Source of the DNA: Bacteroidales bacterium
GTDB taxonomy: Bacteria > Bacteroidota > Bacteroidia > Bacteroidales > UBA932
Assembly (NCBI GenBank): GCA_017428035.1
Contig: JAFRRR010000044.1
Coordinates: forward strand, 1-36,913
Length of the DNA stretch: 36,913 bases
Reading direction: 5' to 3'
Shown piece after piece: positions 5,100 through 18,324 of the stretch (positions within the stretch are counted from its first letter, which is position 1; each line of letters begins with the position of its first letter). The notes under the pieces were generated by a model that saw nothing but the letters and a program-made list of their open reading frames with translations, made no database searches and was not told the origin of the DNA. The translations under genes were made by a program, and so were the position numbers.

Positions 5100-5188
5100 G
5101 TAATTATTTTTTGAAGGCTGGTGTATCAGGCGTTTGCGCTCCAGCTAACTGGGCGGGCAAAAAGCTGCGGTATTCTCGCTAAAAGTGA

Positions 5189-5196
5189 TATCTTTG
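5189..5196 (+). promoter_or_regulatory. Probable -7 box of the AraC-type regulator
   Basis: TATCTTTG matches the Bacteroidota consensus TAnnTTTG exactly and lies 20 nt before the ATG at 5217. No clear -33 element is seen. Confidence 0.5.
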
Positions 5197-5216
5197 TGCT
5201 GAAACGCTCCTTCGGT

Positions 5217-6323
5217 ATGACGCACGAGAGTCTCTATCTGCTCACCTCTTTCACCAGCGCACTTGTGGCCCTTGTGCTGGCGGTGATACTCGCCGGCCTT
5301 AAGATTCGCCCGAGCGGAGAATTGCTAAGGTACGGCAAGGCCAGATGGTGCCTGGCTGGGGCATTTGCCGCCTACGCCGCGTTCTCCCTGCTGGAGATTA
5401 TGCTCAGCCGCTCGCCGAAAGTGCCCACCGGCGGCCTTGCAGGCAGCCTTATAATCGTTATAGGCTCGTTTATGGCGATGTTTGTTACAATGACGGTGCT
5501 CTCCTTTATCCGGCCGGAGATGGTCAACCGTAAGGTTATTTTCCTGCAACTTGCAGTTTTGGTGCCGCTTGCCACTGCCCTTGTGGTGCTGAATCTGGCT
5601 GCGTCGCAGCGTGTTTTCCGCGTATGTTTCGCTGCGGGGCTTGCGGCCTATCTGCTGCAACTGTTTCTTTATACCCGCCTTTTCCTGAAGAGTTACCGCC
5701 TGTTCAACGAGCGGATGCTGGCCTTCTACCAGGAAGAGGATCTGGTGGACCAGCTGCACTGGATCAACTGGACCTTCTGGCTGGCGCTCATAGTGGGCAT
5801 ACTGGCTCTGTTTATGATGCTTGACAGCCTTGTGATAAGCAGCGTGCTTACAATGGTGTTCGCAGTCTGCTTCCTTATTATCGGCATCTCTTTTATCAAT
5901 TACCGGCGTTTTGCGCCTATGGTAGACCGCGCCGTGTCGGCAGTGCCGGGAGCGCCGCCGGCGCCCGAAGCCTCTGCCGGCGCTCTGGCGATCGCCGGCG
6001 AACAGCAGGATCGGCTGGGGGAGTGGATACGGCAGAAAGGCTATCTCGACAACACCAAGGCTGTGGACGACATCTCCCACGAACTGGGTTTCTGGGATCC
6101 CACGCTGCAGGATTATATCCGTCAGACCACGGGCGAAGATTTCCGCAGCTGGAGAATCCGTCTCAGGATCCAGGAGGCGGAGCGGATCATCAGCTCGGAT
6201 CCGAATATTCCTATCTCGCAGGTGGTGGCGATGGCCGGTTTCAACGACCGCGCTTTCTTCTACCGCAGCTTCCAGAAAATCACCGGCCGCTCGGTGAAAG
6301 AGTTCCGGGAGTCGCTCGCTTAG
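5217..6323 (+). CDS. Seven-TM membrane protein with C-terminal AraC-type HTH
   Basis: A 368-residue protein. Seven hydrophobic segments fill residues of about 5-235, for example LVALVLAVILAGL, AGAFAAYAAFSLLEIML and WTFWLALIVGILALFMML. A linker rich in Ala/Pro follows, then an AraC-type double helix-turn-helix (about 270-368) with DYIRQTTGEDFRSWRIRLRI, ISQVVAMAGFNDRAFFYRSF and KITGRSVKEFRESLA. This layout is a common Bacteroidetes regulator in which a membrane sensor is fused to the DNA-binding domain. The start at ATG 5217 is chosen because it follows the TATCTTTG box and begins the first membrane segment; the longer frame from 5121 runs through the promoter. Its target is unknown; the divergent glycosidase-like gene is the nearest candidate. 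Its last codons and stop are duplicated at 7658-7669. Confidence 0.85.
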   Translation: MTHESLYLLTSFTSALVALVLAVILAGLKIRPSGELLRYGKARWCLAGAFAAYAAFSLLEIMLSRSPKVPTGGLAGSLIIVIGSFMAMFVTMTVLSFIRPEMVNRKVIFLQLAVLVPLATALVVLNLAASQRVFRVCFAAGLAAYLLQLFLYTRLFLKSYRLFNERMLAFYQEEDLVDQLHWINWTFWLALIVGILALFMMLDSLVISSVLTMVFAVCFLIIGISFINYRRFAPMVDRAVSAVPGAPPAPEASAGALAIAGEQQDRLGEWIRQKGYLDNTKAVDDISHELGFWDPTLQDYIRQTTGEDFRSWRIRLRIQEAERIISSDPNIPISQVVAMAGFNDRAFFYRSFQKITGRSVKEFRESLA

Positions 6324-6334
6324 GGCATTTTCTG
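6312..6334 (+). repeat. Left copy of a 23-bp direct repeat flanking the ATPase island
   Basis: The repeat starts TCGCTCGCTTAGGGCATTTT and ends CTG. It is identical at 7658-7680. In this copy it contains the last three sense codons and stop of the AraC-type gene (Ser-Leu-Ala-TAG). Confidence 0.9.
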
Positions 6335-6394
6335 TCGCAACGGTGCACGACATATTTTTTCACTTGTTTTTTATGTTATTATAAAATTAAAGTT

Positions 6395-6402
6395 TATATT
6401 TG
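6395..6402 (+). promoter_or_regulatory. Probable -7 box of the ATPase gene
   Basis: TATATTTG matches TAnnTTTG exactly, 17 nt before the ATG at 6420, in an AT-rich leader inside the island, so the island brings its own promoter. Confidence 0.5.
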
Positions 6403-6419
6403 CATAAAAATATAGAGCC

Positions 6420-7568
6420 ATGATAGAGCGCACCCTTCGAGAAAAATTGCTATATCTTTCCACCAAATTTCCGTTCGTGCTTCTTACCGGGCCGAGGCAG
6501 TCCGGCAAGTCCACTCTCGTGCGTCATACCTTTAGGGATTATTCTTACATTTCGCTGGAAGAGTCTGACAACCGCAGCTATGCAGAGGAAGACCCGCGTG
6601 GTTTTATTTCAGAGTACCCGGATAAAACTATTATTGATGAAGTACAGAGAGTTCCGAAGCTGCTATCTTATCTCCAGACTCACTCGGATTTGGCTGGCAA
6701 GAACGGGATGTACATCTTGACGGGCTCACAGAACTTTCAGCTTCTTTCCTCCGTTGACCAGTCGCTTGCAGGGAGGGTGGCTGTCATGACACTTCTGCCT
6801 TTTTCACATATCGAGATGCGTGACGGCGGCATTCTCCCTCAGAGCATAGATGAGGAAATCTTTAATGGAAGTTACCCAAGACTGTACGATAACGGTCTGT
6901 CGGCAGCAGACTTCTATCCAAGTTATATCGATACCTATGTAGAGCGTGATGTCCGGTTGGTGAAGGATATTGGAAACCTTTCTGCTTTTGTAAGGCTCCT
7001 CAAGTTGTGTGCAGGAAGGATAGGGCAAATCCTCAATATGTCCTCGCTTGCAACAGAGTGCGGGGTGACGATTCCCACCATAAACTCTTGGCTTTCCGTT
7101 CTGCAGTCCAGCTATATCATCTACCTGCTGCAACCGGATTACCGCAATTTCTCCAAGCGACTCGTCAAGACTCCCAAGTTGTATTTCTACGATACGGGGC
7201 TGGCTTGTTCGCTCCTTGAGATCAAGCAGGCGTCGCAAGTGTCCAATCACTACCTCCGTGGAGGGCTTTTCGAGAATATGGTCATAGGTGAGTTCCTGAA
7301 GCGGGGCCTCAATGAAGGAGACCGTCCGTCATTCACATTTTGGCGTGATTCGAATGGCAACGAGGTTGACCTGCTGATGAACAAAGGAGATCACGTTGAT
7401 GCTGTTGAAATCAAGTCGGGGCAGACTTACAACGCCGATTTCTTCAAAAACTTAAAGTACTGGAGCAAACTTTCCGGCGAGGACAAAGACCATTGTCAAG
7501 TTGTCTATGGCGGAAGTCAGCATAGGAGTACTTCTGAGGGTGAACTCATCCCCTGGAGTATGCTGTAG
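6420..7568 (+). CDS. AAA_14 / DUF4143 P-loop ATPase
   Basis: A 382-residue protein of the widespread AAA_14 plus DUF4143 family. The Walker A motif GPRQSGKST is at about residues 24-32 and the Walker B-like TIIDEVQRVPKLLSYLQ at about 70-86. LTGSQNFQL gives the sensor region at about 100-108. The C-terminal DUF4143 part has ERDVRLVKDIGNLSAF, KLYFYDTGLACSLL, and a nuclease-like core GNEVDLLMN...DAVEIKSGQTY (about 317-340) resembling the PD-(D/E)xK fold. The role of the family is not established; members often lie alone in variable genome regions. Here it is the only gene between two 23-bp direct repeats and has its own TATATTTG box. The length is typical and nothing looks truncated. Confidence 0.88.
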   Translation: MIERTLREKLLYLSTKFPFVLLTGPRQSGKSTLVRHTFRDYSYISLEESDNRSYAEEDPRGFISEYPDKTIIDEVQRVPKLLSYLQTHSDLAGKNGMYILTGSQNFQLLSSVDQSLAGRVAVMTLLPFSHIEMRDGGILPQSIDEEIFNGSYPRLYDNGLSAADFYPSYIDTYVERDVRLVKDIGNLSAFVRLLKLCAGRIGQILNMSSLATECGVTIPTINSWLSVLQSSYIIYLLQPDYRNFSKRLVKTPKLYFYDTGLACSLLEIKQASQVSNHYLRGGLFENMVIGEFLKRGLNEGDRPSFTFWRDSNGNEVDLLMNKGDHVDAVEIKSGQTYNADFFKNLKYWSKLSGEDKDHCQVVYGGSQHRSTSEGELIPWSML

Positions 7569-7657
7569 AACTTATCCGTTATTCATCTGCCGAGGGTGGC
7601 TTTTTATCGGGTCACGTAGCTGTTCATTTATTAAGGTATTGGCCAAATAGCGACAAT

Positions 7658-7680
7658 TCGCTCGCTTAGGGCATTTTCTG
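7658..7680 (+). repeat. Right copy of the 23-bp direct repeat
   Basis: Identical to 6312-6334, including the TCGCTCGCTTAG that encodes the end of the AraC-type gene in the left copy. Here it is non-coding. The DNA after this copy is probably the original downstream sequence of the AraC-type gene. Confidence 0.9.
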
Positions 7681-7698
7681 CGTCATTTCGCCCTCCAG

Positions 7699-7726
7699 GG
7701 TGTAGACTTTTGCAAAAGTCTACACC
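7699..7726. promoter_or_regulatory. 28-bp perfect palindrome
   Basis: The left half GGTGTAGACTTTTG is followed immediately by its exact reverse complement, with a TTTTGCAAAA centre and no loop. It lies 31 bp upstream of the TATCTTTG box of the first BIG2/FISUMP lipoprotein gene. It could be an operator for a dimeric regulator, or the ancestral terminator of the AraC-type gene that is now cut off by the island. No T-tract follows, which argues against a simple intrinsic terminator. Confidence 0.6.
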
Positions 7727-7756
7727 GCCGCGCCGTGTTTTGCCGCCGCCCGAATG

Positions 7757-7764
7757 TATCTTTG
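7757..7764 (+). promoter_or_regulatory. Probable -7 box of the surface-lipoprotein array
   Basis: TATCTTTG is an exact match to TAnnTTTG, 25 nt before the ATG at 7790. A TTTTG occurs at 7738-7742 but is closer than the usual -33 spacing. Confidence 0.5.
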
Positions 7765-7789
7765 ATTGGATAAATAGCAAAGTTCTGTT

Positions 7790-10700
7790 ATGATTAAAAA
7801 ACTTCTCACCATAGCGCTGCTGGCCTTTGCGCTGTGTGCTTGCAAAAAGACGCCTGAAGAAACAATTGTCCCGGTAGCCTCAGTGACGCTGAGCCAGCCG
7901 GAAGCCGAAATGGAAGTGGGGGAGACGGTGCAGCTTCAGGCCCAGATTTCCCCTTCAAATGCCACTGAGCAGAATGTGATGTGGGGCTCATCCAAGCAGA
8001 GTGTGGCGACTGTGTCCGACGCCGGCCTTGTGACGGCAGTAGGTGAAGGCTCTGCCAAGATTACTGCGACCGTAAGCGGCAAGACAGCTACCTGCGTGGT
8101 TACTGTCACCAAGCCGGAAGTGCCTGTGGTGCACGTAGAGAGTGTGTCTTTGGACAAGACCGATGCGACGCTGGAGATAGGCCAGTCGCTGACTCTCACC
8201 GCCACCGTGCTGCCTGAGAATGCCGCAGACAAGAGCGTTGAATGGAAATCCACCAACCCCGCAATTGCCGAAGTGGATCAGAACGGAACAGTGACCGCCA
8301 TAAGCAGCGGGGCCGTGACCATCACCGTAACCACCACAGACGGGGAGAAGGCCGCCGCCTGCGAGATCACGGTTAACGCCGCAGTGCCGCCAGTTCCGGA
8401 AGATGAATACGATGGTGAAGAAAACGGTCATTATTGGGTTGATATGGGGCTGCCGAGCGGCATAAAGTGGGCGACCTGCAACGTAGGAGCAAACTATTCT
8501 TCACAGCGCGGCTCCCGGTTTGCCTGGGGAGAGACCTTTGCAAGGGAAAACGTGGAGACTCCACCATATACCTGGTTTAACTCCGCAACAGGTAAGTTTA
8601 CCAAATATGTGATCGACTCCCGTTATGGCAACGTCGACAATTTGACAACGCTCGAATCGGGAGACGATGCTGCTCATGTGCAGTGGGGCGGAGACTGGCG
8701 TATACCCACCGCGGCAGACGTAATGGAATTGGTAGAGAACAGTACCTATGAGTCCGTACAGCAAAATGGAGTGTTGGGAATAAAACTCACCAGCAAGAAT
8801 AATGGACACAGCATATTCCTGCCTGGAAACAATGATGATTCCCTCGATGGCGCTTATATGACGTCATCGATATTCGATACTCAGTATTCGTGGGTTTATA
8901 TCTTATATGATGAATCTATATACCCTTATGATACTGGTACGATTCGAGGTGGAATATTACCGGTTCGCGCCGTCATTGGCACAACCACCTATATCCCTGT
9001 ACAAAAGCTGGACATTGAATATACCTCAGCGGCGATGATTCTGGGCTCGACCAGGACCCTGCACGCATGGGTTGTCCCCGACAATGCTACCAACAATACC
9101 GTCATCTGGACCTCTTTAGACGAAAGTGTGGCTACCGTAGATGACAAAGGCAATGTGACAGCAGTTGGGGCTGGCAATGCTTATATAAAAGTATCTGCGG
9201 GCGGACACTCCGACACCTTCTGTTTCGAGGTAGTCCCCCTTCTTGAAAGTATCAAAATAGAACCCGAAGAATTGACATTGGAGATTGGCGAAAGCGCCAC
9301 CGTAACCGTCGCCTGCACTCCGCTACAGTACCTTAAGTATTATTCCCCCGGATATGCTAACCGTAGTGTCGATGTTATTGATGTAGAATGTACAGGAGGA
9401 ATTAATTATGATTATGACTCTTCTGACCCGCCCACATTCCGCATTACTGCGAAAGCGGGAGGTGAGGCGACATTTGATTATTTCGCCACTGTTAATGGAG
9501 AAGTTACTGTAGTAACCTGCCACGTGACCGTACCTTATGTCGAGGACGATTACGACGGAGAGACCGACGGCCACAAATGGGTAGACCTTGGGCTGCCGAG
9601 CGGCATCGAATGGGCCACCTGCAATATTGGCACAGATTATTCCACCCAAGTCGGTCCCCTGCTTGAATGGGGAGAGGGAGAAAATGACCCGGTTAAAGTC
9701 AATTGGGGAGGAGACTGGCGTATGCCCACTGAAGCCGACGCCCAGGAATTGAGAGACAATACCACCTACGAGTGGATATCATATCATGGCGTACCGGGCG
9801 CGAAATTCACCAGCAAGATTAATGGTAAGAGCATTTTCCTTGCGGCAGATGAAAGGTATTACGGCATTTATCTTACGTCTTCATATTATAAAGGGTATGT
9901 TACGTGCATCAACTTTTTGAATGATGGTGGACTAGGTATTAATTATGTCGAGCAAGATCAAAAGCACCCAATTCGCCCCGTTATCGGCAACCCTCCTTAT
10001 GTGCCCGTGGAGTCGGTGGATTTTGGATATTCGCACGATTTTCTCTCAGTCGGGGATGTCAGAAACCTGTCGGTAGACATAAGTCCGTCTAACGCGACCA
10101 ATAAAAAAGTGACTTGGTCTTCTGGCGACGAGAGTGTTGCGGTAGTAGACAGCAACGGCAAACTGACTTGCGTGGGGGCCGGAAGTACCAGAATTTACGC
10201 AGAGGCAGATGGCAAAAGTGATAACTTCATTCTCAGAGTCGACCCTCATATCAATAGCATAACGCTGGAGCCCTCCGAACTGAACCTGACTGTCGGTCAA
10301 ACAGCGATCGTTACCGTCAGGATAGATCCCGATGTGCCCCTTGGCTCGTATGGGATGAGCATCTGGGGTGGCGTCTTTGATATACAAAGCGTCGGAGATA
10401 ATCCTATCACTTATCGTGTGACGGCCCTCGAGGAAGGTACGGGTTCCTTCACGTTCGATGCTTACGGAGCAGAAGCCACCGGCACCGTCACGGTGACCGC
10501 CGCCAAAGCCAGCACGCTGGCCGAACTTAAACAAATGGCCGATGCCGGCCAGGACTGCAGTTCCTACCTGGGGTATGTATTCACAACTTCGGGCAAAATC
10601 TTCAAAGATGCCGCCTCCATTCCCTCCGACGGCGGTTCCCCGGTTGCTATGATTGCCTATATCGGCGCCAAGGGGTCGGCAGACAGCAGCCTCGGCAGCG

Positions 10701-11266
10701 CAAATTACAACGGCCTGGCCATCGCCCTGAAAAATGCGGCTTCAATGAACTGGGGCAGGAAAGATAACGCTTATCTGGATACCCCTGAGTTTACCAACTG
10801 CAATAATATTTCCGCAGCCCTTGCTGATATGGCTGGCATTGGCCATACCAACATTATGTCAGAAAGGTACTACAGTACCGCCGACGCAGCAAACAATTAT
10901 GTGGTATCCGGTTTCAATCCCTCAGACTTGGGATGCAGCGGCTGGTTCGTGCCCACGGCGGGGCAGTGGGCCAAATATCTGAATGCGATGTACGGCCATA
11001 CCTGGTCCAATTTTGGAGATCCCGATCAGTACCAGTATGGAGTCAACTTCTGTGCTGCCATAGATAATGACATCATAGCTGCCGGAGGTGCATCTCTGTT
11101 TACCTATCACAGCGGATACAATGCTTATTACTGGACGAGTTCAGAAGTGGACAATTTGTCTGCCATTCAAATGGGTTTCACCTATAATGCTTATCAAGGG
11201 CGTGAGTACTTTTATTCGGCAAGCAAAGAGAATGCGTTTCAGCTCCGCTGCTTCATAGCTTTTTAA
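7790..11266 (+). CDS. Modular surface lipoprotein 1: BIG2 and FISUMP domains
   Basis: A 1158-residue lipoprotein: signal peptide MIKKLLTIALLAFALCAC with the lipidated cysteine at 18, then KKTPEE, whose acidic tail resembles a surface-export signal. The approximate order is: BIG2 (30-110), BIG2 (112-198), FISUMP-like domain (205-390; YWVDMGLPSGIKWATCNVGA, GGDWRIPT), two BIG2-like (395-485, 487-575), a shortened FISUMP-like domain (578-735; WVDLGLPSGIEWATCNIG, GGDWRMPT), two BIG2-like (738-905) and a third, different FISUMP/DUF1566-like domain (915-1158; GWFVPTAGQW, YYWTSSEVDN). BIG2 is an Ig-like fold and FISUMP is thought to be C-type-lectin-like, so a surface adhesin or glycan-binding role is likely but unproven. 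It is the first of three tandem paralogues; the N-terminal 200 residues are nearly shared with the second. Confidence 0.85.
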   Translation: MIKKLLTIALLAFALCACKKTPEETIVPVASVTLSQPEAEMEVGETVQLQAQISPSNATEQNVMWGSSKQSVATVSDAGLVTAVGEGSAKITATVSGKTATCVVTVTKPEVPVVHVESVSLDKTDATLEIGQSLTLTATVLPENAADKSVEWKSTNPAIAEVDQNGTVTAISSGAVTITVTTTDGEKAAACEITVNAAVPPVPEDEYDGEENGHYWVDMGLPSGIKWATCNVGANYSSQRGSRFAWGETFARENVETPPYTWFNSATGKFTKYVIDSRYGNVDNLTTLESGDDAAHVQWGGDWRIPTAADVMELVENSTYESVQQNGVLGIKLTSKNNGHSIFLPGNNDDSLDGAYMTSSIFDTQYSWVYILYDESIYPYDTGTIRGGILPVRAVIGTTTYIPVQKLDIEYTSAAMILGSTRTLHAWVVPDNATNNTVIWTSLDESVATVDDKGNVTAVGAGNAYIKVSAGGHSDTFCFEVVPLLESIKIEPEELTLEIGESATVTVACTPLQYLKYYSPGYANRSVDVIDVECTGGINYDYDSSDPPTFRITAKAGGEATFDYFATVNGEVTVVTCHVTVPYVEDDYDGETDGHKWVDLGLPSGIEWATCNIGTDYSTQVGPLLEWGEGENDPVKVNWGGDWRMPTEADAQELRDNTTYEWISYHGVPGAKFTSKINGKSIFLAADERYYGIYLTSSYYKGYVTCINFLNDGGLGINYVEQDQKHPIRPVIGNPPYVPVESVDFGYSHDFLSVGDVRNLSVDISPSNATNKKVTWSSGDESVAVVDSNGKLTCVGAGSTRIYAEADGKSDNFILRVDPHINSITLEPSELNLTVGQTAIVTVRIDPDVPLGSYGMSIWGGVFDIQSVGDNPITYRVTALEEGTGSFTFDAYGAEATGTVTVTAAKASTLAELKQMADAGQDCSSYLGYVFTTSGKIFKDAASIPSDGGSPVAMIAYIGAKGSADSSLGSANYNGLAIALKNAASMNWGRKDNAYLDTPEFTNCNNISAALADMAGIGHTNIMSERYYSTADAANNYVVSGFNPSDLGCSGWFVPTAGQWAKYLNAMYGHTWSNFGDPDQYQYGVNFCAAIDNDIIAAGGASLFTYHSGYNAYYWTSSEVDNLSAIQMGFTYNAYQGREYFYSASKENAFQLRCFIAF

Positions 11267-11293
11267 ACGAAATATTCCTTAACAGATAACCTT
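11258..11293 (+). repeat. 36-bp leader repeat, copy A (before lipoprotein 2)
   Basis: Begins GCTTTTTAAACGAAATATTC and ends ATAACCTT directly at the ATG. It matches 15985-16020 at 33 of 36 positions. Its first nine bases encode Ala-Phe-stop of lipoprotein 1. It probably carries the translation-initiation region of lipoprotein 2. Confidence 0.8.
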
Positions 11294-14200
11294 ATGATAA
11301 AGAAAGTCTTTGCCATTGCGCTGATGCTGATAGCGCTGTGTGCCTGCGAGAAAGAGCCCGATGACCAGATAGTTCCGGTGGCATCCGTGACGATGAGTCA
11401 GCCGGAGGCAGAGATGCAGGTGGGGGAAATCCTGCAGCTCAAGGCGCAGATCTCTCCCTCCAATGCCACAGAGCAGAATGTTGTGTGGGCATCTTCAAAG
11501 CAGTCCGTGGCGACTGTATCCGATGCCGGCAAAGTGACGGCCGTTGGCGAGGGTTCAGCTAACATTACCGCCAGCGTCGATGGCAAGAGCGCCAGCTGCG
11601 CCATTACTGTCACAAAACCGGAAGTGCCTGTGGTGCACGTAGAGAGCGTGACTTTGGACAAGACCGATGCGACGCTGGAGATTGGCCAGTCGCTTACCCT
11701 CACCGCGACCGTGCTGCCGGACAATGCCTACGACAAGTCGGTGGTATGGAAATCCACCAACCCGGAAATTGCCGAAGTTGACCAAAACGGCAAGGTGACG
11801 GCCATGGCTAGCGGCACTGTGACCATTACCGTGACCGCCATGGACGGCGACAAGGTCGCCGCCTGCGAAATAACGGTTTCCGAGGTTTTTGTCCCGGTAG
11901 AGTCGGTGACGTTCGAACATCCCGAGCTGATTGTTCATAAAGGAGATTCTTACCAGATAAACGTCATCGTGCTTCCCGAGAACGCCACCAACAAGACCAT
12001 TACCTGGACGTCGTCCGACCCCAGCATTGCATCCATCTCGCAGGAGGGCATAATTACCGGATTGGGAGACGGCCGGGTGGTGATAACCGCAAAGGCCGGT
12101 GACATAGAGGCCACTTGTGACGTTGTAGCAATTGACGACCCTGTAATAGAAGACCACGACGGCGAGGAGAACGGCCACTATTGGGTCGATTTGGGCCTGC
12201 CGAGCGGCATCAAGTGGGCGACTTGCAACGTAGGCGCCGCTTCTGCCGAAGACTATGGCGGATATTATGCCTGGGGAGAGACCCTTACCAAAAGCGCTTA
12301 TAGGCAAGAAAACTACAGTGTTCAAACCAAGTATTCAGCCGGCGACGATAACTTGACACAGTTGCTGCCCGAAGATGATGCCGCGCACGTCGTTATGGGC
12401 GGTAATTGGTTTACGCCCACCTGGGAAGAGATGCAGGAACTGCTTGATAACTGCACCTTCGAAAGGGTTGATATGGGAAATGGCGCCGGCTACAAGGTGA
12501 CGAGCAAGCAGAACGGAAAAACCATATTTTTGCCGGCTGCCGGCAGTAAAATCTTCGAAAACGAAGAATATGTCGGCGGGGTGCTCTTTTACTGGACGTC
12601 ATCTGTCAAAGCTGACCTGGTTTCGCAAGCATGGAATCTGAATACCTACAACAATGAGCTTGTCGTGGATGGCAGGGAGAGATTCCGTGGCTGTCCCATA
12701 CGTGCCGTCACCGGCAGGGCTGCAGTGCCGGTTGAAAGCATAAGGCTGAACAAGATACAGATATTCTCCATGCATCCGAATGACCGGATAACCCTTGTCG
12801 CAACTGTTCTTCCAGAGAATGCTGCCGACAAGAGTGTCAGATGGGCATCCTCCAACCCGGGGATAGCCGATGTGGACCAGGCGGGCAATGTCACTGCCAA
12901 GAGCGTCGGCACAGTGACCATCACTGCAACCACCACAGACGGCGGTAAGGTCGCCGGCTGCGAAGTGACCGTCAAGCCCGCTAAAGTCGCCATCCAGAGC
13001 ATAGCCATAGCTCCCTCAAGCGTATCAATGAAGGTCGGTGAGACCGTAATGTTAAAATTTATTGTAGCACCGCCGGAGGCCGATGTTTACAGTACCGCTG
13101 CTATCATTACCGGCGACAGTGGGGTTCTCGTATTTGGGACGGATGATGTCAGTACCCAGAAAACTATTGTGGCGCGTTCACCGGGCTCCGCAGCAGTCAC
13201 CGTCAAAGTCAAGGGCGCTGGCGGCGAAGAACTGTCCGCCACCTGCCCCGTGACTGTGACTGAAGATACATCATATATTCCTGTGGATTATCTGGAATTC
13301 GATCAATCACATATTGAATTGACTATTGGGGATATCAGATCTCTGAGTGTGACGGTTTTCCCGGATAATGCAACCGACAAGACGGTCACCTGGTCGTCTT
13401 CCGACAACCGTATCGCGAAGGTAAGTGCCAGCGGCCTGCTGACCGCTGTCGGTGCCGGCAGCGCAAGCATTATTGCTACGGCCGACGGCAAGTCCAATTC
13501 ATTTGATGTGACGGTCAAGAGCAACATTGTACCAGTGGAGAGCATCAGGCTTGATAAGTTTGATGAATTGCTGGGAACAGGCAATTCCCTTGACCTGACA
13601 GCGACCGTGCTCCCTTCCAATGCCACGAATCAGACCGTGACCTGGTCTTCCTCTGACCCGGGAGTTGCAACGGTAGATGCTTCGGGACACGTTACGGCTG
13701 TGGATGCCGGAATCACCGAAATAAAGGCAATGGCGGGGGGAAAGGAAACGGACTGCCGTGTAACAGTGATAGCCGTTCCCCAGCGTATCGATCTCAATGC
13801 GACGCAGATGACATTGACCAAGGGAGAGAGTGCCACCCTTATCGGTACGGTATTCCCGGCCAACGCCAATGATAGGAATGTGTATTACTATGCAGACGGC
13901 TCCAGTGTTGTAATTGTCGGAGAAAGGACGGGAGAAGTATATGCGAATAAACTGGGTACCGCCGTTATCACGGCAAAGAATATATCCAGCGGTATCACTG
14001 CTACCTGCTCTGTCACAGTGGTAGCTGCCGGCCCTGCCGGCATTATTCTGGAGCAAAACAGTATCACTGTCGGTGATGCTGCAAGCCAGGATATACGTGT
14101 TCCTCTGCAACTTGTAAATACCGATGGCTCGACGTTGCAGGCAACTGACGACGCAGACTGGATTGGAACCAGCGTAGTCGGTTCGAGCGTTGCTTTCTTT

Positions 14201-15964
14201 GTTGCCGAGAACAAGAGCATCTTGAGCCGTACGGCGACAATTACACTTACCTATAGTTCGGCGACAGCCACCGTCACCGTTACTCAGAGAGGCAAGACCC
14301 CTTCAGGACCGCCGGACATAGAACTTATCGTTAATCCGGATGCAAACAACGGTTTGAGTTCCACCGGAGGAGATCAAGGTGTCTGGGCAAGGGTTACCAA
14401 TCCGGTCGAGGGCGTCCAGATGCAACTGTCTGCAGACGTGGACTGGATGACAAATCTCCGCTCCGGTGCAAACGATACATATTATTTCACCACAGGCAAG
14501 AATACGAGCGGTCAGACACGCACGGGGCACTTTATATTGACCTACGGCTCTGTAACCAAGCGGATAAAATTCATTCAGGAGCCAGTTCTCGCCACCATAA
14601 TTATCACGCCGAACGACGTGACAGTAAACTATAAGGCCCAGGTGGGTGAGTTTAATGTCGCCCTGCCCGAGGGCTTCAGCCATGACGGCCTGACATTCGA
14701 ACCCGATGGCAACTGGATGAGCGAATTTACAGTAGCTGGCAGCACAGTGGCCTTCAGGATAAGGGAGAATAACAGTGGTAATGACAGGACCGGTCGCGTC
14801 AAAGTGAGCCTTGGCGGCCAGAGTGAGTGGTTCAGAATCACTCAGACATTTGATGCTCCGGAGGTTATACTGCGTGATTCTTATAAGCTTTCTTATTTGG
14901 GTCAGAAGACGGCTATTTGGGGCCCTATAACCAACCCCAGAGAAGAAGTTGGTTTTGATGTCCGCGTATTGAACAGTCCCGGCTGGATTTATGCCAACCC
15001 TGGCGGAGCATTCACCGTGACTGAGAATACAACCGGGAGAGCCCGCTCGGCTCAGGTGGAGATATCCTATGGCAATTATTTCAAGAAGACACTCACTGTA
15101 ACCCAGGACGCATCCGAGACTCAGGTAAGACCTTCCACCAATGAATATAACGCACCTGCCGAAGGAATAGATCTCCAGATGAATGTCCGTATCATCGATC
15201 CTCTGCAATACACGTCCCTTGAGGTAATCCCGGCGGATCCTTGGGTAGAACTCATCTCGATGACGGGCGGAGATCCGATGTATACACTTCGCTTTACGAT
15301 ACGAAAGAACTACTGGCCTGTAGAGAGAGTTACAACGGTGACATTCAAGTACGGTGATTTCTCCGCTACTTTGAAAATCACTCAACCCGCCGGTGACGAA
15401 TTGCCTGTAGGATTCATAGATCTTGGCCTGCCAAGCGGAACCCTTTGGGCGCTGACGAACCTGGGGGCCTCCAATGATTATGACTACGGCAGCTATTACG
15501 CCTGGGGCGAGACCACCGCGAAGACCAGCTTCACCTGGTTCAATTACACATTGGGCTCCGGCAGCAGGCCGTGGGAGAACCTGGGCAAGTATAACAGAAG
15601 TGATGGCAAGAAGGTTCTTGAACCCGAAGATGATGCGGCTACTGCTGCCGATGCTGCATGGAGCATACCTACCAGGGCGCAGTGGCAGGAGTTGATGGAG
15701 AATTGTGACTTCGAATGGATTCAGACTCCGGTGGCAGGCGTCAAGTTCACTTCAACTGTGAACGGTGAGTCAATCTTCCTTCCGGCTGCCGGCTGGAAAG
15801 CAGATAATGATCCATATGAACCGGCTTGTATTTACTGGTCCAAGAATCTCTCAGACGATGGCGATAGCACCACAGCCGTGACATTCGAGGCAATGGATTA
15901 TTGGTCAATGTCCATTGCAACACGCTACTACGGTATGCCTATTCGCCCTGTCCGCCAGAGATAA
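11294..15964 (+). CDS. Modular surface lipoprotein 2: BIG2, BACON and FISUMP domains
   Basis: A 1556-residue lipoprotein with signal peptide MIKKVFAIALMLIALCAC and cysteine 18, then EKEPDD, an acidic stretch typical of surface-export signals. The approximate order is: three BIG2 (30-285), a FISUMP-like domain (290-472; YWVDLGLPSGIKWATCNVGA, GGYYAWGE, GGNWFTPT), five BIG2 (475-920), then five BACON-like repeats (925-1375). The BACON-like repeats show the pattern aDW....v....f.v..N.....R...i...yg......tQ, for example ADWIGTSVVG and TVTVTQ. A C-terminal FISUMP-like domain follows (1378-1556; FIDLGLPSGTLWALTNLGAS, GSYYAWGE). BACON domains occur in Bacteroidetes carbohydrate-active or mucin-binding proteins. 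The start is fixed by the signal peptide and by the conserved 36-bp leader. It is likely co-transcribed with its paralogues; the ligand is unknown. Confidence 0.85.
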   Translation: MIKKVFAIALMLIALCACEKEPDDQIVPVASVTMSQPEAEMQVGEILQLKAQISPSNATEQNVVWASSKQSVATVSDAGKVTAVGEGSANITASVDGKSASCAITVTKPEVPVVHVESVTLDKTDATLEIGQSLTLTATVLPDNAYDKSVVWKSTNPEIAEVDQNGKVTAMASGTVTITVTAMDGDKVAACEITVSEVFVPVESVTFEHPELIVHKGDSYQINVIVLPENATNKTITWTSSDPSIASISQEGIITGLGDGRVVITAKAGDIEATCDVVAIDDPVIEDHDGEENGHYWVDLGLPSGIKWATCNVGAASAEDYGGYYAWGETLTKSAYRQENYSVQTKYSAGDDNLTQLLPEDDAAHVVMGGNWFTPTWEEMQELLDNCTFERVDMGNGAGYKVTSKQNGKTIFLPAAGSKIFENEEYVGGVLFYWTSSVKADLVSQAWNLNTYNNELVVDGRERFRGCPIRAVTGRAAVPVESIRLNKIQIFSMHPNDRITLVATVLPENAADKSVRWASSNPGIADVDQAGNVTAKSVGTVTITATTTDGGKVAGCEVTVKPAKVAIQSIAIAPSSVSMKVGETVMLKFIVAPPEADVYSTAAIITGDSGVLVFGTDDVSTQKTIVARSPGSAAVTVKVKGAGGEELSATCPVTVTEDTSYIPVDYLEFDQSHIELTIGDIRSLSVTVFPDNATDKTVTWSSSDNRIAKVSASGLLTAVGAGSASIIATADGKSNSFDVTVKSNIVPVESIRLDKFDELLGTGNSLDLTATVLPSNATNQTVTWSSSDPGVATVDASGHVTAVDAGITEIKAMAGGKETDCRVTVIAVPQRIDLNATQMTLTKGESATLIGTVFPANANDRNVYYYADGSSVVIVGERTGEVYANKLGTAVITAKNISSGITATCSVTVVAAGPAGIILEQNSITVGDAASQDIRVPLQLVNTDGSTLQATDDADWIGTSVVGSSVAFFVAENKSILSRTATITLTYSSATATVTVTQRGKTPSGPPDIELIVNPDANNGLSSTGGDQGVWARVTNPVEGVQMQLSADVDWMTNLRSGANDTYYFTTGKNTSGQTRTGHFILTYGSVTKRIKFIQEPVLATIIITPNDVTVNYKAQVGEFNVALPEGFSHDGLTFEPDGNWMSEFTVAGSTVAFRIRENNSGNDRTGRVKVSLGGQSEWFRITQTFDAPEVILRDSYKLSYLGQKTAIWGPITNPREEVGFDVRVLNSPGWIYANPGGAFTVTENTTGRARSAQVEISYGNYFKKTLTVTQDASETQVRPSTNEYNAPAEGIDLQMNVRIIDPLQYTSLEVIPADPWVELISMTGGDPMYTLRFTIRKNYWPVERVTTVTFKYGDFSATLKITQPAGDELPVGFIDLGLPSGTLWALTNLGASNDYDYGSYYAWGETTAKTSFTWFNYTLGSGSRPWENLGKYNRSDGKKVLEPEDDAATAADAAWSIPTRAQWQELMENCDFEWIQTPVAGVKFTSTVNGESIFLPAAGWKADNDPYEPACIYWSKNLSDDGDSTTAVTFEAMDYWSMSIATRYYGMPIRPVRQR

Positions 15965-15984
15965 TCCGGCCACTGATCATTGTT

Positions 15985-16020
15985 GCTTTTTAAACGAAAT
16001 AATCCTTCACCGATAACCTT
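15985..16020 (+). repeat. 36-bp leader repeat, copy B (before lipoprotein 3)
   Basis: Begins GCTTTTTAAACGAAATAATC and ends ATAACCTT directly at the ATG. It is a near copy of 11258-11293 at the same distance from the start codon. The GCTTTTTAA here is no longer the end of a gene, since lipoprotein 2 stops at 15964, so it looks like a relic of the Ala-Phe-stop end seen in copy A. Confidence 0.8.
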
Positions 16021-18324
16021 ATGATAAAGAAAATCTTTGCAGTGGCGCTGATGATAGTGGCGCTGAGTGCCTGCAGAAAGACACCGGAAGACACTATAGT
16101 TCCGGTGGCGAGTGTTGCGATCAGTCAAACCGAGGCGGAAATGGAGCTGGGTGAAACCGTGCAGCTGAAGGTGCAGGTTACGCCGTCCAATGCCACGCAG
16201 CAGAGTGTGATGTGGGCCTCTTCAAAGAAGTCCGTGGCGACTGTGTCCGACACCGGAGAAGTGACGGCCGTGGGCGAAGGCTCGGCCACGATCACAGCCA
16301 CCGCAGGTGGCAAGAGCGCCAGCTGCAGGATTACGGTGCTTAAGCCGAAGGTCGAGGTGCAGTCACTGGAACTGGATCAGAAAGAAGTGGCGCTGCCCAA
16401 GGGCGCAAGTCTGACCCTTGTGGCAACTGTGAGCCCCGCGGATGCAAGCGATGCCACGGTTTTCTGGTCGAGTGCCGACGAGGCTGTGGCAATTGTGGAC
16501 CAGAGCGGCAAGATTACCGCCACGGGCCGCGGAAGCACTGTCGTAACAGCCTTCTCGGGCAACAAGAGCGCCAGCTGCAAGGTCTCGGTGAATGTACCCG
16601 TCGAGAGGATTTCCCTGAGTTTTTTCAAGGTCGAGATACCTGTGGGTGGCAGCATACACATCATCGCATATGTTGAGCCTGCAGATGCCGACGATACGAG
16701 TGTTGTATGGGCATCTACAGATACGGAAGTGATAGAAGTGGACCAGGATGGACTCGTGTCCGGCAAGAGAGTCGGAGAGGCCACAGTATCCGCTTCCAGT
16801 GCAGACGGAAGCATTGTTGTTGGCTGTGTGGTTACGGTAACTCCGGTCCCGGTGCCTGTCGAAAGCGTAAGTCTGGACAGGACCGATGCGCAGTTGGAGA
16901 TTGGCCAGACGCTGACGCTGACGGCCACCGTGCTGCCGGAAGACGCCACCAGCAAGAGCGTGAGGTGGGCTTCTTCCAACCCGGGCATCGCCGAGGTGGA
17001 CCAGGCGGGCAATGTCACAGCCAAGGGTGCCGGCACAGCCACCATCACGGCAACGACCGTCGACGGCGGCAAGGTTGCAGGCTGCGAAGTGCTTGTCAAA
17101 GAGCCCTTTGTGGAGGTAGTGTCAGTTGCGATAACGGATGGCTCCACGACTGTCGGCACAATTGAGGCGACTAAGGGAACGACAAGGACTCTATATGCGC
17201 TGGTCCTCCCCGAGAATGCTTCGCAAAAGACAGTCACCTGGACAAGCTCCAATCCAGATGTGGTAATTGTAGATCAGACAGGTGCCGTTGCGTTTGTGGG
17301 TGGGGGAGAAGCCGTCGTGACGGCCGAGGCTGGGGGCAAGACTGCTGCGTGCCGCGTCAGCGTTACCGCCCCCGTAACAAGCATTGTGCTGAATGCCACT
17401 GAATTGGAAATGACCCTCGAAGAGACCTTCACTCTGGTGGCAACAGTTTACCCCGAAGATGCCACAAACAAGGATGTCCAGTGGACAAGTTCCGATGCCG
17501 CAGTGGTGTCGGTACAAGGCGGAGTGCTCACGGCCCGGGCGACCGGCACGGCCACCATCACCGCCACCGCGAAGGACGGCAGCGGAGTCAAGGCCGAGTG
17601 CCGCCTTACAGTGGTTGCACCGGGGGCCATCGATCCTGCAAGGAAAGTCATCGAAGCCATTGACCTCGGCCTGAGCGTGAAGTGGGGCAGCGTGAATCTC
17701 GGCACATCCAGGCCGGATGAATACGGCGACAGTTACTATTCCTGGGGTGAGACCGAGATAGATGATTTATATTATTGGGAAGATTACACCAAGTTCGGAA
17801 CGTACGACTATAAAAACACGTCAACATACGGTTTTACCAAGTACAACGGCTTAGACGGCAAGAGCGTCCTCGATCCGGAAGACGATGTCGCCCATGTGAA
17901 GCTCGGCGGCAAATGGCGCATGCCCACTATAGAAGAGTTCAGGGAATTGTTATATACCAGTTCCCTTTGCAGGGCGCAGTACCAGGGCCAAGACCCCAGT
18001 GCCAGAGATTATTCCGGTCCAGACTTTGACTGGAAATGGTATGACAATTACAATGGCTCGAATGTGGCCGGTTTTCTTGTCACTGCCCCGAACGGTAACA
18101 GCATCTTTCTTCCCGCCGCCGGCTTCAAATTCAACGATGGCCTGCTCGACGTTCAGGGTGTAAGCGGCGTTTACTGGTCTTCCTCCTGCCGTAGCGACAT
18201 CCGGGAAATCGCCGCCTACCAGTCGTGGTACGTTTACTTCAGAAGGGATGGCTTAGCAGAACAGTTTCACTGGACTTGGTATGGGCGCTATGCCGGCCAC
18301 TCGATCCGCCCGGTATCGGATTAA
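16021..18324 (+). CDS. Modular surface lipoprotein 3: six BIG2 and one FISUMP domain
   Basis: A 767-residue lipoprotein: signal peptide MIKKIFAVALMIVALSAC with cysteine 18, then RKTPED. Six BIG2 repeats follow at about 30-110, 112-195, 196-280, 281-366, 367-455 and 456-540, each ending in a C..(T/S)V strand and containing W(A/S)SS or WTSSN. The C-terminal FISUMP-like domain (545-767) has AIDLGLSVKWGSVNLGTS, SYYSWGE, GGKWRMPTIEEFREL and YWSSSCRSD...SIRPVSD. It is the third and shortest member of the array. The fourth BIG2 repeat is closest to repeats of lipoprotein 2 (SNPGIAEVDQAGNVTAKG). A surface location is inferred from the signal sequence; function is unknown. Confidence 0.85.
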   Translation: MIKKIFAVALMIVALSACRKTPEDTIVPVASVAISQTEAEMELGETVQLKVQVTPSNATQQSVMWASSKKSVATVSDTGEVTAVGEGSATITATAGGKSASCRITVLKPKVEVQSLELDQKEVALPKGASLTLVATVSPADASDATVFWSSADEAVAIVDQSGKITATGRGSTVVTAFSGNKSASCKVSVNVPVERISLSFFKVEIPVGGSIHIIAYVEPADADDTSVVWASTDTEVIEVDQDGLVSGKRVGEATVSASSADGSIVVGCVVTVTPVPVPVESVSLDRTDAQLEIGQTLTLTATVLPEDATSKSVRWASSNPGIAEVDQAGNVTAKGAGTATITATTVDGGKVAGCEVLVKEPFVEVVSVAITDGSTTVGTIEATKGTTRTLYALVLPENASQKTVTWTSSNPDVVIVDQTGAVAFVGGGEAVVTAEAGGKTAACRVSVTAPVTSIVLNATELEMTLEETFTLVATVYPEDATNKDVQWTSSDAAVVSVQGGVLTARATGTATITATAKDGSGVKAECRLTVVAPGAIDPARKVIEAIDLGLSVKWGSVNLGTSRPDEYGDSYYSWGETEIDDLYYWEDYTKFGTYDYKNTSTYGFTKYNGLDGKSVLDPEDDVAHVKLGGKWRMPTIEEFRELLYTSSLCRAQYQGQDPSARDYSGPDFDWKWYDNYNGSNVAGFLVTAPNGNSIFLPAAGFKFNDGLLDVQGVSGVYWSSSCRSDIREIAAYQSWYVYFRRDGLAEQFHWTWYGRYAGHSIRPVSD

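Follow-up and report, generated by a model that had tools for sequence, protein, structure and literature searches.

The window analysed here, a stretch of 36,913 nucleotides (positions 1 to 36,913 of contig JAFRRR010000044.1) from the Bacteroidales bacterium assembly GCA_017428035.1, contains a gene for an ATPase of the AAA_14/DUF4143 type that stands alone between two copies of a short direct repeat. To its left lies a gene for an AraC-type regulator (5121..6323, + strand), assigned by its matches to the HTH_18/HTH_AraC domains. The repeat is exact and 23 bp long, its copies lie at 6312-6334 and 7658-7680 with a copy-to-copy distance of 1,346 bp, and a search allowing 3 mismatches found these two copies alone in the 2.26-Mb assembly. 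As a first-pass annotation of the sequence had proposed, the left copy represents the end of the AraC-type gene, namely its final three codons and stop (TCG CTC GCT TAG) followed by a short trailer, which is, however, 11 bp long rather than the 14 bp given there. The right copy lies outside any gene, and the P-loop ATPase gene (6420-7568) is the single gene between the two, both as described in that annotation. A repeat arising by chance was rejected, as the 23-mer is unique to these two places in the genome and no match as long as 23 bp was obtained in 200 shuffles of the 400 bp upstream (0/200). The guanine-plus-cytosine content of the insert (44-50%) is little informative, because it overlaps with that of the right side (44-58%); the left side measures 50-62%.

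The site of this gene was found in its unoccupied form in a sister genome. In a scan of genome contigs, the 23-mer was present in one other record, contig CACXHG010000121.1 of the metagenome-assembled genome RUG11257 (G016), where the AraC gene, 92% identical at the amino acid level, is followed by one copy of the 23 bp and then directly by the right flank of the window, with no ATPase. The two blocks of the alignment between the window and G016, 5115-6334 (95%) and 7658-8335 (88%), overlap in G016 by exactly 23 bp, at 7323-7345 of its stretch. The single copy together with the exact overlap leads us to conclude that a 1,346-bp single-gene unit was recently inserted behind the AraC-type gene, so that 23 bp of the gene's 3' end now stand on both sides of it. 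The DNA missing in G016 corresponds to the 1,323 bp between the copies (6335..7657), or 1,346 bp with one repeat copy. This is the empty site that the first-pass annotation had predicted, and its picture of a self-contained unit whose insertion leaves the neighbour's 3' end intact is supported: the sister lacking the ATPase carries one copy, and the repeat occurs nowhere else in the genome. A filled and an empty site with a target duplication, one of the features by which transposable elements are recognized, is thereby given for this unit. The comparison draws on one sister genome, both assemblies being metagenome-derived, and collinearity on the left spans 1.2 kb, the contigs differing left of position 5115. 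Since the window's genome is an assembly of 136 contigs, one might attribute the arrangement to an assembly artefact or a chance repeat, but the sister assembly joins both flanks with one copy, and repeat brackets around DUF4143 genes are also found in the single-contig genome G248 (loci L081 and L146), which makes such an origin very improbable. A perfect 28-bp palindrome (7699..7726), located 18 bp past the right copy, belongs to the target and not to the insert, because it is also present at the empty site. A tRNA target and a known structured RNA were rejected: the window contains no tRNA, and between 5000 and 9000 nothing in Rfam matched at an E value of 1 or below.

The inserted gene (6420..7568, + strand) encodes an ATPase-nuclease of 382 amino acids that matches the Pfam families AAA_14 and DUF4143 with 91.4 and 157.2 bits (gathering cut-offs 27 and 28.1, respectively), and its best PADLOC match is a PDC-S01 model (E 2.3e-97, residues 1-374 of 382). 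In an alignment of 30 members, from which residue invariance was judged, G24, R26, Q27, G29 and K30 of the Walker A motif (GPRQSGKS, residues 24-31; 6489..6512, + strand), D73 and E74 of the Walker B motif (IIDE, residues 71-74; 6630..6641, + strand) as well as D310, E315, D317 and E330-I-K332 of a PD-(D/E)XK-type nuclease core (residues 310-332; 7347..7415, + strand) are invariant in 30/30 sequences. Residues 203-237 (7026..7130, + strand), with the invariant positions T220, W224 and L228, were recognized by eye as a probable winged helix-turn-helix. Searches of NCBIfam and PHROGs at E 0.01 returned nothing for the window protein, and the family alignment retrieved nothing convincing from the PDB by sequence (best E 0.17). 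Among the 26 genomes of the window's genus no close copy of the ATPase was found, the closest other gene being 31% identical, while relatives at E 1e-80 or less occur in 86 of the 393 genomes of the order (own genome counted), the best of them 63% identical. The contrast between a best match of 31% within the genus and of 63% across the order points to transfer of the window gene. Relatives are carried by 367 plasmid records, of which four regions were read, and IMG/VR returned 0 loci with the window protein as query and 4 with the family alignment. On the IMG/VR viral contig L331, a DUF4143 gene stands shortly after a serine-recombinase-like open reading frame (ORF), with a small ORF between them, as judged by eye.

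Bracketing direct repeats were surveyed across the order in 80 stretches of 5 to 15 kb, nine shorter loci and the window, covering about 95 of the 113 listed places with relatives (hand count). A direct repeat was counted as bracketing if it was shared, with a score of at least 40, by the 350 bp before and the 350 bp behind a gene. Of 100 DUF4143 ORFs, three of which are pieces of two broken genes, 12 were excluded as too close to the end of their stretch, and so were 64 of 508 others. DUF4143 genes are bracketed far more often than other genes, with 31 of 88 (in 29 loci) compared to 17 of 444. Six of the 16 scanned genes among these 17 turned out to be ATPases of the DUF4143 (three) or ATPase_2 type (three, one under the Pfam cut-off); the remainder comprise two Y1_Tnp genes, one each of Fic, Bro-N, PDDEXK_3, polysaccharide deacetylase, S1 and DUF4397, and two genes without a family. 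Bracket lengths at the other loci range from 37 to 180 bp, and the repeats are of three kinds: non-palindromic copies of a flank (L098, 44 bp; L155, 98 bp; L151, 103 bp; L101, 120 bp; L136, 154 bp), palindromes beside the gene (for example L129, L124, L112, L119, L145, L076, L141 and L143) and dispersed arrays (L150, L134, L093 and L069). When the whole genome was searched for the repeats of the five flank-copy loci and of L191, no more than one additional copy, partial or weak, turned up besides the two that bracket the gene. Wider queries revealed that parts of the L136 repeat are present again in both genomes of its genus and that G066 and G349 contain further instances of sequence adjacent to the L098 repeat. 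Y1_Tnp genes with flanking repeats were seen in L150 and L122, and the DUF4143 gene of L150 lies inside the same repeat array.

Palindromes are a second recurrent feature of these genes. In the window, an imperfect 43-bp palindrome (6368..6410, score 11) covers the likely promoter of the ATPase gene and contains TATATTTG, which we take to resemble the Bacteroidetes -7 box. In a palindrome survey that took in 96 of the 100 DUF4143 ORFs and 476 of the 508 other ORFs, a palindrome with a score of at least 11 was present within 120 bp before the gene in 46/96 DUF4143 genes as compared to 17/476 other genes, while palindromes behind the gene occur without excess (10/96 vs 49/476). The gene's own upstream sequence is repeated behind it (score of at least 34) in 14/96 DUF4143 genes, compared to 15/1,920 mismatched pairings and 12/476 other genes.

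The position of closely related units was compared in genus g92, where DUF4143 genes occur in 24 of 26 genomes with up to 45 per genome. The pair comparison took in 82 of 87 genes belonging to about ten families; among the 61 pairs with at least 75% gene DNA identity, which are not independent of each other, 31 share no flank, 14 share one and 16 share both. In three genomes, no shared flank was found in 6/12 DUF4143 pairs, one intragenomic pair among them, compared to 1/22 aminotransferase pairs. DUF4143 relatives in this genus are discrete units, consisting of about 70-220 bp before the gene, the gene itself and up to about 150 bp behind it, and their sites differ by species. A same unit at different sites, as expected of a transposable element, is thus observed in g92 (31/61 pairs). 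The hint in the first-pass annotation that DUF4143 ATPase genes in general may be mobile is supported. Defined termini with a duplication of fixed length were not found: repeat lengths vary, and palindromic ends occur in some families only. The family L157/L205/L190/L185 occupies three distinct sites (L205 and L190 sharing one), with homology extending as far as the outer end of the palindrome behind the gene; in several other families homology is lost no more than about 5 bp past the stop codon. Synonymous divergence (dS) is 0.095 for L160/L189 and 0.088 for L161/L189, while aminotransferases of the same genome pairs give 0.21-2.3 (13 pairs, with one more giving no resolved value). Because its dS falls below that of the aminotransferases, the L160/L161/L189 unit moved after the species had parted. 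Identical copies within a genome are represented by a tandem pair in G084 and a 12.5-kb exact inverted duplication in G435. The latter (L186/L187, G435:C42) consists of two 12,477-bp stretches on one contig that are identical and inverted, and could be a real duplication or an assembly artefact.

An anatomy that mirrors the window insertion was observed for an ATPase of the related ATPase_2 family. In L191 (G435), an ATPase_2 gene (7318-8448, 376 amino acids) adjoins an aminotransferase gene, the last codons and terminator of which stand on both sides of it as an 84-bp repeat (region 7200-8650). G432 (L276) has one 84-bp copy and no insert and is the sole empty site for L191; L208, considered as another, was rejected as it matches the left flank only. 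The window's genome contains a second, distant DUF4143 gene (C111, L043), whose flanks are separated by 1,643 bp; at this place G016 has 113 bp and G018 has 4 bp, together with a shortened palindrome like that before the L043 gene. The difference may stem from gain or from loss, and in some other relatives the flank gaps at this site range from about 700 to 1,750 bp. For L098, a possible empty site is present in G349, where flanks of 66-69% identity are separated by about 400 bp, as opposed to 1,650, and hold one terminator copy, which is inverted. At a further site (site C; L225 in G219), close-set flanks without the unit are found in G116, G427, G432 and G435, while L260 (G433:C33) holds a decayed DUF4143 remnant in which most of the gene is deleted and both ends are kept; the spacers at site C are too different for a duplication to be recognized.

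Permuted forms of one unit bear on how it might travel. In L136 (G076), the ATPase lies between two 154-bp repeats, and its sister G448 (L343) has the unit at 95% identity at another site, where it starts in the repeat at position 81 and ends at position 94, so that the ends of the G448 unit form a 14-bp direct repeat (13/14 letters alike). To the right of the G448 unit, the sequence corresponds to that starting at L136:8723, where G076 has no unit. The two forms can be converted into each other by circular permutation, each turn containing a single repeat copy, which is what a circle recombining through repeat sequence would produce. We take this as a hint only, because nothing in L136 corresponds to the left flank in G448. 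Such a circle would also suit a non-autonomous unit moved in trans, either by a tyrosine integrase with the 23 bp as its core or by a repetitive extragenic palindrome (REP)-associated Y1 transposase acting on the palindromes, or else propagated by homologous recombination of circles via short repeats. The position of the 23 bp at a gene's 3' end, resembling an attachment (att) core, would agree with this, as would the two Y1_Tnp genes among the other bracketed genes, one of them in the array of L150. However, the repeats differ from locus to locus, close relatives lie at unrelated sites and the 23-mer was found only in the window's genome and its sister. On the same grounds, the comparison with attachment-site integrative elements made in the first-pass annotation is not supported, the repeats varying in both length and sequence, and a recurrent attB/att site was rejected. 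To our knowledge, Y1 transposases usually leave no target duplication, which counts further against movement in trans. No integrase is encoded within the element, where the single gene between the repeats is a non-integrase gene; the rest of the window's genome was not searched for integrases. Taken together, we consider movement in trans improbable.

Our favoured reading, to which we assign a probability of roughly 0.44, is that the unit is a self-mobilizing single-gene element that is kept at low copy number and spreads between genomes. The ATPase-nuclease, combining an AAA+ ATPase, a winged helix and a PD-(D/E)XK nuclease, would bind the palindrome before its gene, where it would hold its own expression low, and would drive excision of the unit, perhaps as a circle. 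The unit would then insert at the 3' ends of genes and elsewhere between genes, and cuts or nicks with a long and variable stagger would restore the neighbour's end and leave direct repeats. We infer that the ATPase-nuclease is the agent of movement because it is the sole gene of the unit, has conserved active sites and a palindrome of its own, and because the same anatomy recurs in a related ATPase family; the involvement of a circle is likewise inferred.

Several observations weigh against this reading. Repeats checked against a one-copy empty site are two only (23 bp and 84 bp), 57 of the 88 DUF4143 genes are without a bracketing repeat, and the 154-bp brackets of L136 were rejected as a simple target duplication since parts of them recur elsewhere in both genomes. 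The upstream palindrome of the window unit has no downstream copy, and no fixed right end was recognized, because several families share nothing past about 5 bp after the stop codon. Some other pairs at different sites are as diverged as the species or more so (dS 0.33 and 6.3, and one without a resolved value). Among 68 proteins of four genomes, in a comparison that took in 25 of 45 genes of G307 and 16 of 32 of G435, one within-genome pair exceeds 70% identity, and DUF4143 copies therefore do not multiply within genomes. DUF4143 genes are under purifying selection: 13 of 14 pairs of copies have a ratio of nonsynonymous to synonymous divergence (dN/dS) of 0.03-0.09, with no resolved value for the remaining pair. 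This is like the ratio of the aminotransferases (0.00-0.05) and fits a useful host gene as well.

The low dN/dS is one of the points that lead us to regard a different explanation as nearly as likely as a self-mobilizing element: PDC-S01 would be selected defence cargo that is spread passively. Transferred DNA would be captured at broken chromosome ends or via short-repeat recombination, end filling or template switching would leave the repeats, and selection would keep those insertions that spare the neighbour. Passive spread explains well the variable repeat lengths and the units ending at the stop codon, agrees with the near full-length match to PDC-S01, and is in keeping with the observation that other orphan genes (Fic, Bro-N, PDDEXK_3) are bracketed by repeats too. 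Moreover, PDC-S01, identified by guilt by embedding, is ranked fourth in frequency among the defences of prokaryotes in PMC12988326, according to which most candidates of this type still await validation. On the other hand, bracketing repeats and different-site pairs are far more frequent for DUF4143 genes than for other genes, and the repeated palindromes at the far end are left unexplained by passive spread. The neighbourhood of DUF4143 genes shows no clear sign of defence islands either: in a scan of 84 near and 84 distant genes from lists of 100 each, the near omissions including two known DUF4143 genes, none of the PADLOC families listed occurs in more than 2/84 immediate or more than 2/84 distant genes. 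Counted by model rather than by protein, the near set matched 88 PADLOC models and the distant set 54, so that a weak excess near DUF4143 genes may exist.

PDC-S01 is described as an ATPase fused to a member of the PD-(D/E)XK superfamily in PMC12988326, and PMC13356809 lists it with 10,358 loci in rumen genomes as the most frequent single locus. Within the accessible portions of the literature searched, these two papers included, mobility of the DUF4143/PDC-S01 family is not mentioned. The window protein agrees with this PADLOC candidate (AAA_14 + DUF4143, PF13173 + PF13635) in its near full-length match, its single gene and its combination of an ATPase with a PD-(D/E)XK-type nuclease. The difference lies in context, as PDC-S01 is listed as defence via embedding, whereas the window gene forms a discrete insertion at which the end of the target is duplicated, and its promoter region is palindromic. 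The ATPase_2/DUF234 ATPases (PF01637; PDC-S27-like) are related, as illustrated by L191 with its copies of the neighbour's 3' end and terminator, but belong to another ATPase subfamily, and the PDC-S27 match is weak (E 2.9e-5). It has been proposed before that archaeal ATPase-nuclease fusions may be mobile. REP-associated Y1 transposases (RAYT) resemble the window unit in being single-gene units beside REP palindromes at low copy per genome; the window protein, in contrast, is an ATPase-nuclease without a Y1 domain, and its target is duplicated. IS1549 and IS1634 share with it long target duplications of variable length, but encode DDE transposases, while the window protein matches AAA_14 and DUF4143 only.

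We tentatively extend the favoured reading to the family as a whole, while rather doubting that it will hold in full: DUF4143/PDC-S01, and probably ATPase_2/PDC-S27, would constitute a new class of autonomous single-gene mobile element with exit as a circle, variable direct repeats and about one copy per type per genome, and the 'defence' counts would largely reflect insertion. A family counted as a very common phage-defence candidate may then be, or may also be, a mobile element. Should these genes prove to be mobile units, their embedding would say little in favour of defence, the counts of PDC-S01 would have to be reinterpreted, and the role of DUF4143 would become testable.

Two further features of the window were noted. 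Positions 186-462 and L043:1150-1370 carry a dispersed repeat of about 220 bp that resembles a miniature inverted-repeat transposable element, has inverted ends (CCAGAAGATATATGGGCG...CGCCCATATATCTTCTGG) and is present at several places in the window's genome and genus. To the right of the insertion, 7790-18324 holds three adjacent genes that resemble one another at their starts and in the sequence upstream, with alignment blocks at 11293 and 16020, and that look like a tandem expansion; the first of them matches Big_2 in four stretches.

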